DNA of 64,000 nucleotides from positions 1,922,001 to 1,986,000 of the forward strand of contig NZ_AP031572.1 of the NCBI RefSeq assembly GCF_040436315.1. The letters run 5' to 3'. Positions within the stretch are counted from its first letter, which is position 1, and every line of letters begins with the position of its first letter. Of the stretch, positions 61,213-63,439 are shown one piece after another. The notes beneath the pieces were generated by a model. That model was not told the DNA's origin. It saw only the letters and a program-made list of their open reading frames with translations, and did no database searches. The position numbers and the translations under genes are program-made. Source of the DNA: Synechocystis sp. LKSZ1 (GTDB lineage Bacteria > Cyanobacteriota > Cyanobacteriia > Cyanobacteriales > Microcystaceae).

Positions 61213-61830
61213 ATGAAACCTCTCTTTACGATTGGTCACTCTAACCATAGCCCTGAAAAATTTATTGAGCTTCTAGAGCGACATGGAATTACGGCCCTGG
61301 CGGATGTTCGTTCTTCCCCGTATAGTCGCTACTTGCCCCACTTTAACCGGAAATCTCTAGAAACTCTCCTGCCGCAAGCCGACATTCGCTATGTTTTTCT
61401 CGGGGATCAGTTAGGTGCTCGTCCCAACAATCCTAATTGTTATGTTGACGGCAAGGCCCTATACGAGAGAATTGCCCAAACGACGGCTTTTCAACAGGGA
61501 CTACAGCGGCTGTTAAAAGGCTCCCAAAATTATCGTATTGCGCTGATGTGCGCCGAAAAAGATCCCTTGACTTGTCATCGGGCAATCTTAGTCTGTCAAC
61601 AGCTTCTACCCTTTAATCTAGAAATTGGCCATATTCATAGTAATGGTGAGCTGGAATACCATGAAAATCTAGAAGAAAGAATGCTTAAATTGCATGGTCT
61701 GCAAGATCTAGACACTACGATGCAACTTTCTCTCTTCTCCGGTGATACTCCTCCTCTATCAGAGCGGGCGGAACGGCTCCACCAAGCCTATCACCTCCAA
61801 GGTGAGCGCATAGCCTATGTTGAAAAATAA
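61213..61830 (+). CDS. DUF488 family protein (first of two)
   Basis: A 205-aa protein with the DUF488 motifs TIGHSNHS (6-13), ADVRSSPYSRYLPHF (about 30-44) and CAEKDPLTCHRAI (about 113-125). The family fold is Rossmann-like and the conserved Cys-His-Arg suggests an active site, but no activity is established. It overlaps the next gene by 14 bp. The GGCC count (3) is lower than in neighbours. It opens a three-gene group with a second DUF488 and a dual-OB protein. Confidence 0.88.
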   Translation: MKPLFTIGHSNHSPEKFIELLERHGITALADVRSSPYSRYLPHFNRKSLETLLPQADIRYVFLGDQLGARPNNPNCYVDGKALYERIAQTTAFQQGLQRLLKGSQNYRIALMCAEKDPLTCHRAILVCQQLLPFNLEIGHIHSNGELEYHENLEERMLKLHGLQDLDTTMQLSLFSGDTPPLSERAERLHQAYHLQGERIAYVEK

Positions 61831-62269
61831 TACCATCAAGCTTTTTACCATTGGTTTTACCCGAAAGTCAGCAGAGGTTTTTTTTGAGAAACTCCGAGCC
61901 GCAGGCGTTGCACGACTTATTGATACCCGACTAAACAATACATCTCAACTATCAGGGTTCGCTAAACAAGCTGACCTCCAATATTTTCTGCGTCAAATCA
62001 CTCAGGTTGACTATGAACATCAACTATCTTTAGCGCCTAATAAGGATATTTTAGATGCCTACAAACAAAAGAAAATAAGTTGGCAAGATTATGAAAAAAG
62101 CTATTTAGAACTACTCAAAAAGCGATCAGTAGAATCAATCTTCGACTCAGATAAGTTGGCAAATGCCTGCCTATTATGCAGTGAAGATAAACCCCATTAT
62201 TGTCACCGACGCTTGGCGGCAGAGTATTTACGGCAAAAATTTGAAAGCATTGAGATTTTGCATTTGTAG
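61817..62269 (+). CDS. DUF488 family protein (second of two)
   Basis: A 150-aa compact member: FTIGFTRKSAE near the start, LIDTRLNN (about 35-42) in place of DVRSSP, and CLLCSEDKPHYCHRRLAAEYL near the end. The CxxC-E-CHR arrangement is the same as in the first copy, but the middle differs strongly, so the two are old paralogues or were acquired together. The ATG at 61817 overlaps the first gene by 14 bp. The coding region contains no GGCC and is AT-rich, which suggests transfer. Confidence 0.88.
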   Translation: MLKNNTIKLFTIGFTRKSAEVFFEKLRAAGVARLIDTRLNNTSQLSGFAKQADLQYFLRQITQVDYEHQLSLAPNKDILDAYKQKKISWQDYEKSYLELLKKRSVESIFDSDKLANACLLCSEDKPHYCHRRLAAEYLRQKFESIEILHL

Positions 62270-62404
62270 ATTTGGACTTTTTTATGACAGCAGTCCCCAG
62301 TCTATATAAAATATGTGATCATATTTGATCCTGCCTTGCTTATTATCAATCTCCAAGGACGATAGCGATATTGTAGAAAATTGAAATTCCCTTTGTAACA
62401 GAAT

Positions 62405-63196
62405 ATGGCAGAAATTATTTGTCTTGCTAATTCATACAAAAATCAGGGTCGCTGTATTGCCGGAATCTCGCTAAGAACGGGACAATGGATTAGACCCATC
62501 TCTGACCTCGATGATGGTCGCATCCCTCTGAATCATAGTCACATTCCAGTATCAAGTATTAACTTACTTGATGTGATTGAAGTTCCTCTCGATCAAGAGT
62601 GCCAGCACGGACATGAGTGTGAAAACTATCGTTACCATCATCATCCATGGTGTATTGTGCGTCAGGCAAGCATTACCGAAGTACTACGTTATCGTGAAAA
62701 TAGATTACTGCATTCTAGCTTTAAGAAAGCAATTCCCTTTAGTTATTTTCAAGAGAATGCCCCTATTAAATCATTGCAACTCATTAAAGTCAAAGAATTT
62801 GAATGCCGACAGAATAGTTACTACAAATGGCGAGGGCTTATTCATGATCAAAGATACGGGCTGGAAAACATTGAGTTCAGCATTACCGATCCTTTTATTT
62901 TGGAAAAATTAAACAATGATGAAACAGTAAGTAGTCATTGTTTGTTGACCTTGAGCTTTGGTCAACCTTGGAGGGCCAGTGAAGATGAAGATTGGAAATG
63001 TTATCGCTTAATCGCAGGGATCATTGAACTGCCTCCTAAACTAGATAGCATTTTAGTAGAAATGGAGCGACTGGGCTGGCAAGAAAACGATGGAAGAAGA
63101 TATTTACAGCAAAAATTTGATAAACAATCTCGTTATCAATTGACTGAAGAGGAATGTCAAGAATTTCTTGACCATTTAGAGAAGTTATCGCAATAA
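62405..63196 (+). CDS. Dual OB domain-containing protein
   Basis: A 263-aa protein beginning AEIICLANSYKNQGRCIAG, with GQWIRPIS shortly after, the opening I associate with dual-OB-fold proteins that occur next to DUF488 genes. Two beta-rich halves (about 1-110 and 120-215) are followed by a helical tail (220-263). A His/Cys-containing loop (CQHGHECENYRYHHH, about 66-80) may bind metal. One GGCC occurs in the gene. It lies 135 bp after the second DUF488 gene with an AT-rich gap (TATATAAAATATG near 62304) that may hold its own promoter. Confidence 0.8.
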   Translation: MAEIICLANSYKNQGRCIAGISLRTGQWIRPISDLDDGRIPLNHSHIPVSSINLLDVIEVPLDQECQHGHECENYRYHHHPWCIVRQASITEVLRYRENRLLHSSFKKAIPFSYFQENAPIKSLQLIKVKEFECRQNSYYKWRGLIHDQRYGLENIEFSITDPFILEKLNNDETVSSHCLLTLSFGQPWRASEDEDWKCYRLIAGIIELPPKLDSILVEMERLGWQENDGRRYLQQKFDKQSRYQLTEEECQEFLDHLEKLSQ

Positions 63197-63439
63197 TTTA
63201 AGACTGACTGTATTTTAAAAGAAAGCCAAAAGAAAGAGGCTATAATTATTGACCGTGGCATTAGTATCGCAGTAAAATTATCTTCGAGCAAAACCAACAT
63301 TTTCACGAAGTGATATCAGCAATGTGGCGCAATAAAGAGAAGACTCCCTATCGAAGGGCTTCTCGCGATCAAGCTTGTATTCTGTGGACGGTTTGCCCTA
63401 CATTGAAAAGCCGCTATCTCTGTCGCCCACATTTTTACC

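Follow-up and report, generated by a model that had tools for sequence, protein, structure and literature searches.

The locus and its composition

The window, as we call the whole stretch of 64,000 nucleotides from Synechocystis sp. LKSZ1 that was analysed (genome G000), carries three intact open reading frames, A, B and D, all on the plus strand, with a 14-bp overlap between A and B. The original prediction had placed two adjacent, overlapping plus-strand DUF488 genes and a dual-OB gene here, and this arrangement was confirmed by the ORFs and by Pfam. The features of the block are listed below, with the basis of each assignment in brackets.

61213..61830, plus strand: gene A, DUF488 enzyme of 205 aa, PADLOC PDC-M45B (ORF, Pfam, PADLOC)
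61817..62269, plus strand: gene B, DUF488-N3a enzyme of 150 aa, PADLOC PDC-M45C (ORF, Pfam, PADLOC, predicted PTP-like fold)
62270..62404, plus strand: spacer between B and D, 135 bp, GC 0.33 (composition)
62405..63196, plus strand: gene D, DuOB protein of 263 aa, PADLOC PDC-M45A, with the dual-OB region at about residues 1-208 (Pfam, PADLOC, model)
63029..63193, plus strand: C-terminal three-helix domain of D, residues 209-263, Red-beta-CTD-like (structure comparison)
63197..63439, plus strand: spacer between D and tyrS, 243 bp, GC 0.41

The length of the B-D spacer is variable and ranges from -13 to +366 bp in relatives.

The segment from 61801 to 63420 had been described as AT-rich and as containing a single GGCC against 13 per 600 bp near the window start. 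Both counts hold (7-14 copies per 600 bp were found near the start), and the GC content of the segment is the lowest in the window (0.384 vs 0.518 for the window as a whole). One copy of GGCC is also the minimum among all 1620-bp stretches of the window (median 23), and the tetranucleotide deviation of 0.509 is the window maximum (median 0.244). The background for these comparisons was the window together with sampled regions.

The claim that the composition is foreign is only partly borne out. The extreme values are confined to B (GC 0.38) and D (GC 0.385), whereas A is mildly low (GC 0.46), and low GC is typical of the family. In 11 genomes, ten of them besides that of the window, the mean GC offset from the flanks was -0.04 for A, -0.08 for B and -0.04 for D, and the GC of the trio genes followed that of the host (r 0.88-0.93). 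Since GC below that of the flanks is usual for this cassette family, composition by itself is no proof of recent import. The offset of B and D in the window, about -0.14 relative to the window flank, exceeds the family average, which fits acquisition without proving it. Around the A-B-D block neither flanking repeats nor transposon ends were found; the repeat search at the block returned a 20-nt direct repeat inside B and D, probably due to chance, and a weak inverted pair. Better evidence for import comes from the patchiness of the cassette and its shifting genomic sites, which are described below.

Family assignment and prior cataloguing

Both A (E 7e-26, 91.7 bits) and B (E 5e-19, 69.4 bits) matched Pfam DUF488 well above the cut-off of 22.2 bits. 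B also passed the cut-off of DUF488-N3a, which belongs to the active N3 subclade, whereas A remained below it (18.8 vs 27 bits). D was assigned to the Pfam family DuOB with E 3.3e-38. When the trio and the neighbouring 266-aa gene were scanned with PADLOC (PADLOC-DB 2.0.0), each of the three proteins was matched by the corresponding model of a single entry, PDC-M45: A by PDC-M45B (E 1.4e-75), B by PDC-M45C (E 6.1e-65) and D by PDC-M45A (PDLC04653, E 4.3e-29). The DuOB component is thus present, as are both DUF488 components, overlapping one another and next to D. The match to D extends only across residues 3-208, and the window protein differs from the catalogued component in its added C-terminal Red-beta-CTD-like domain.

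Judged by these matches, the block is a PDC-M45-type cassette, already listed as a candidate phage defence system. It had been put forward as an undescribed system; this does not hold, as each of the three parts has its model in PADLOC-DB and Pfam lists the families. Phage defence candidates (PDCs) come from 'guilt-by-embedding' and are mostly unvalidated (PMC12988326). In the literature searched we found no paper naming PDC-M45, or DUF488 jointly with DuOB, and no phage-protection experiment.

Active sites of the DUF488 enzymes and predicted fold of B

The predicted Cys-His-Arg site proved to be invariant in both enzymes. In A it forms the motif C113-AEKDPLT-C121-H122-R123 (codons from 61549), which was kept in 91/91 A proteins; in B the motif is C118-LL-C121-SEDKPHY-C129-H130-R131-R132, or CxxC-x7-CHRR (codons from 62168), kept in 97/97 B proteins. 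Burroughs and Aravind, in their classification of the rhodanese-phosphatase superfamily, reportedly proposed DNA-end-processing roles for the DUF488 clade.

No solved structure related by sequence to A or D was found. The model of B (pLDDT 90) is predicted to have a PTP-like fold, at middling Z: its neighbours include SsoPTP (Z 7.3, 110 residues aligned, rmsd 3.3), laforin (Z 7.5) and PRL-1 (Z 7.0), tied with proteins beyond the PTP group, namely diphthine synthase (Z 7.2) and tetrapyrrole methylases (Z 8.2). C121 closes a strand and H130-R131 open the next helix, and from this secondary structure we infer that the Cys and Arg of B may be arranged as in a phosphate-binding loop.

In similar samples, the mean column identity of B was 64% vs 31% for DuOB. 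On seven Caldilineaceae contigs with common flanking genes (83-100% identical), D-A-B was present in three and B alone in four. From this conservation, and from the loci that retain B but neither A nor D, B is the apparent core enzyme of the cassette. In phages, the search for B gave only weak DUF488 matches of 25-35% identity.

The DuOB protein and its C-terminal domain

The model of D (pLDDT 96) had no Foldseek matches with E < 0.001. The neighbours of its OB-like domains, at a low Z of about 4-5, were OB proteins with ssDNA or DNA ends as ligands (telomere end-binding protein, RPA, SSB and RecO) and the phage-restriction factor BrxL. A long-form DuOB in another locus (L085:6438-7298) ends in ...EDDIPY, like an SSB-type acidic tail, which may be chance.

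The C-terminal residues 209-263 of D resemble the C-terminal domain of lambda Red-beta (6m9k_F) in their three-helix fold, with Z 8.3, rmsd 1.6 and 20% identity over 55 aligned residues; for such a small helical domain a Z of 8 falls within the caution range of the tool. Unlike Red-beta, D is devoid of the annealase domain, and a sequence profile of the D tail gave no match to Red-beta chains in the PDB, the only match being a designed miniprotein at E 0.7. In Pfam the tail gave a weak GemA match under the cut-off. The domain is missing from many DuOB proteins, including all non-cyanobacterial ones in our alignment. The protein partners of the C-terminal part of Red-beta are lambda Exo and, potentially, SSB (PMC9512822).

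The genome of the window encodes two further proteins that end in the same domain, recognisable by sequence in both. One is a UvrD-like helicase of 1003 aa (G000:C1 about 176859-179870, L181:859-3870), which is weakly GajB-like in PADLOC. The other is an slr1353-like protein of 283 aa with a proline-rich linker (G000:C1 about 2.453 Mb, L179:796-1647), and the other Synechocystis species have homologues of it that carry the tail domain. That three proteins, of which two seem to be DNA-related, share this tail suggests that they dock at one partner; our best guess for it is SSB.

Co-inheritance of the three genes

Relatives of B were found at no fewer than 526 confirmed loci, with one genome per species scanned, and the best 80 were sampled. 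It was found that the three genes do not mostly occur separately, since 75 of these 80 best loci hold the full trio. The phyla represented among them are Cyanobacteriota, Chloroflexota, Pseudomonadota, Nitrospirota, Verrucomicrobiota, Acidobacteriota and others. The order A-B-D was seen at about 49 of the best 80 loci, all cyanobacterial except for one Nitrospinota locus, and D-A-B at about 26, in other phyla, one of these with a divergent DuOB that was recognised from its sequence.

Among 386 cyanobacterial genomes, a strong B (M45C) was present in 39, a near-full-length DuOB in 37 and both in 36, so that B was accompanied by DuOB in 36/39 and DuOB by B in 36/37. The unpaired genomes include some with split, truncated or stop-bearing genes. 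Apart from synteny among close kin, no neighbour family beyond the trio recurred at the sampled loci, which indicates that the unit is self-contained. These results, together with those in the following section, show that A, B and D are a co-inherited, horizontally mobile functional unit. Of the original idea of an acquired enzyme pair with a nucleic-acid-binding module, what stands is the mobile unit with two cysteine enzymes and a protein of nucleic-acid-binding type; the word 'undescribed' does not.

Mobility and decay within the genus

We compared five species of the genus Synechocystis. The trio is intact in two of them, the species of the window and G001, at unrelated sites. In species G003 only remnants were seen, corresponding to A residues 1-36 and DuOB residues 201-261 with two genes between them, one for a PIN-domain protein and one for a 270-aa protein that fits no known family (L183:4737-6044). 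In G002 the first half of A remains, adjoining the same carboxysome-shell-like gene as the G003 remnant; the decayed cassette of these two species lies at a third genomic site. Neither A nor DuOB was detected in species G004. The remnants mean that absence from relatives includes loss and not gain alone.

The block is not syntenic in the close relatives: in none of the four other species does the flanking 266-aa gene lie next to tyrS, so that none of them offers a clean empty site. In two other genomes (L021 and L044), an internal deletion has fused A to the 3' part of DuOB with nothing in between; the fusion at L044:2109-2915 (minus strand) is an open frame of 268 aa without the catalytic loop of A. 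In the tree of B, the window sequence, RI_101 and two strains of Microcystis aeruginosa group together and lie outside the main cyanobacterial group, to which Microcystis viridis belongs; this placement implies transfer. It is clear that the cassette moves and decays within the genus of the window.

B and DuOB on plasmids

Stand-alone relatives of B, 50-55% identical to the window protein and with the same CxxC-x7-CHRR site, were found on plasmids, either right behind uvrA or ahead of uvrB, within formaldehyde-resistance islands with frmR/frmA/fghA (L151, L152, L153, L156). The uvrA-B junction, with at least 80% of the query covered, was present in 83 PLSDB records. The carriers are conjugative hospital plasmids, including those of E. 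coli. The B of this unit is 50-54% identical to that of the window and has the same active site; the unit differs from the cassette in that A and DuOB are missing and B is coupled to uvrA or uvrB and frm genes.

Two small plasmids, Citrobacter pCF1807-5 and Acinetobacter pApiAE13b (L150:5344-7004 and L154:4998-6683), carry another arrangement, in which DuOB is followed by a B-type DUF488 as in the cassette, but mSLOG-DUF4326 takes the place of gene A. The full D-A-B trio is found on plasmids as well, in one case among type III CRISPR genes: on the Allochromatium plasmid pAt1 (L157:1-10432), D-A-B lies between csm6 and csx16/cas1.

The uvr-linked genes bear on the possibility that the trio is a mobile DNA-repair accessory and not a defence system. 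Where exposed DNA carries adducts or has blocked ends, the three proteins would recognise and reset these in concert with nucleotide-excision repair, and their mobility would reflect exposure to genotoxins, not phages. The link of B to uvrA favours repair chemistry, and the tail domain of D is shared with the UvrD-like helicase of the same genome. However, the uvrA-B records are nearly all at least 99% identical and represent about one event, although the arrangement with uvrB on Aeromonas and Comamonas plasmids is a second one; no uvr gene recurs as a neighbour of the full trios at the sampled loci, and decay and shifting sites in one genus better fit a dispensable defence cassette. We regard a pure repair role as a real but less likely alternative.

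Defence context and proposed mechanism

The neighbourhoods of the cassette were searched for defence genes with PADLOC. Ten trio regions (137 neighbours) were compared with ten regions 1 Mb away (140 proteins), and no enrichment of defence genes near the trios was seen; both sets held defence genes, the controls including type III CRISPR loci. Patchiness, decay and the PADLOC assignment nevertheless favour defence, which we consider likelier than pure repair.

In a toxin-antitoxin or abortive-infection system, one DUF488 protein would be a toxic nucleic-acid- or nucleotide-processing enzyme restrained by the other DUF488 protein or by DuOB. The compact operon with overlapping genes, the patchy spread, the presence on small plasmids and the frequent decay of the cassette are in line with this, but B stands alone at four Caldilineaceae loci and on many plasmids, where it is evidently tolerated without a partner, and both enzymes have full active sites, making such a system improbable. 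Even less probable is a system that modifies DNA to label it as the host's own, DuOB being the DNA-recognition part: PTP/rhodanese-fold enzymes and an OB protein could perform sulphur or phosphate transfer on DNA, and mSLOG-DUF4326 is a partner on plasmids, but no restriction nuclease, methylase or sulphur donor recurs near the trio at the sampled loci.

The reading we prefer, to which we give about an even chance, is that the cassette processes DNA lesions or ends and serves chiefly in conflicts with foreign DNA. The OB domains of DuOB would bind single-stranded or end-exposed DNA, and in the cyanobacterial form the Red-beta-CTD-like tail would dock the complex at a replication/repair hub, most plausibly the C-terminal tail of SSB or a helicase or exonuclease. 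Action would then take place where ssDNA is exposed, for example during phage replication. A and B, which would share a PTP-like fold with a phosphate-loop-like Cys followed by Arg, may work one after the other or as a heterodimer, and their target may be a sugar-phosphate or nucleotide group, terminal or modified, on the bound DNA. B would be the indispensable enzyme, and A, or mSLOG-DUF4326 on some plasmids, would provide a second step or the sensing of the substrate. The outcome would be that invading DNA is blocked, and the chemistry of B would have been recruited separately next to UvrA against formaldehyde-damaged DNA.

A more specific version of this proposal holds that DUF488-B is a new DNA lesion- or end-processing enzyme that DuOB brings to exposed DNA for anti-phage defence (by way of an SSB-docking, Red-beta-CTD-like tail in cyanobacteria), and that it was reused by plasmids with UvrA against formaldehyde. 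In this full form the proposal is speculative and, we think, unlikely to be correct. Three observations that we did not find in the literature searched make the function of the cassette testable: the tail common to D and the UvrD-like helicase points to the site of recruitment, the loci with B but with neither A nor D single out B as the putative core enzyme, and the uvrA-linked B on conjugative plasmids of E. coli opens the way to an assay with formaldehyde. If this reading of DUF488-B were true, one chemistry would tie phage defence to crosslink repair. With at least 526 confirmed relatives of B, the PDC-M45 cassette is very widespread, and the value of these findings is that they give fresh hints of what such a common cassette may do.
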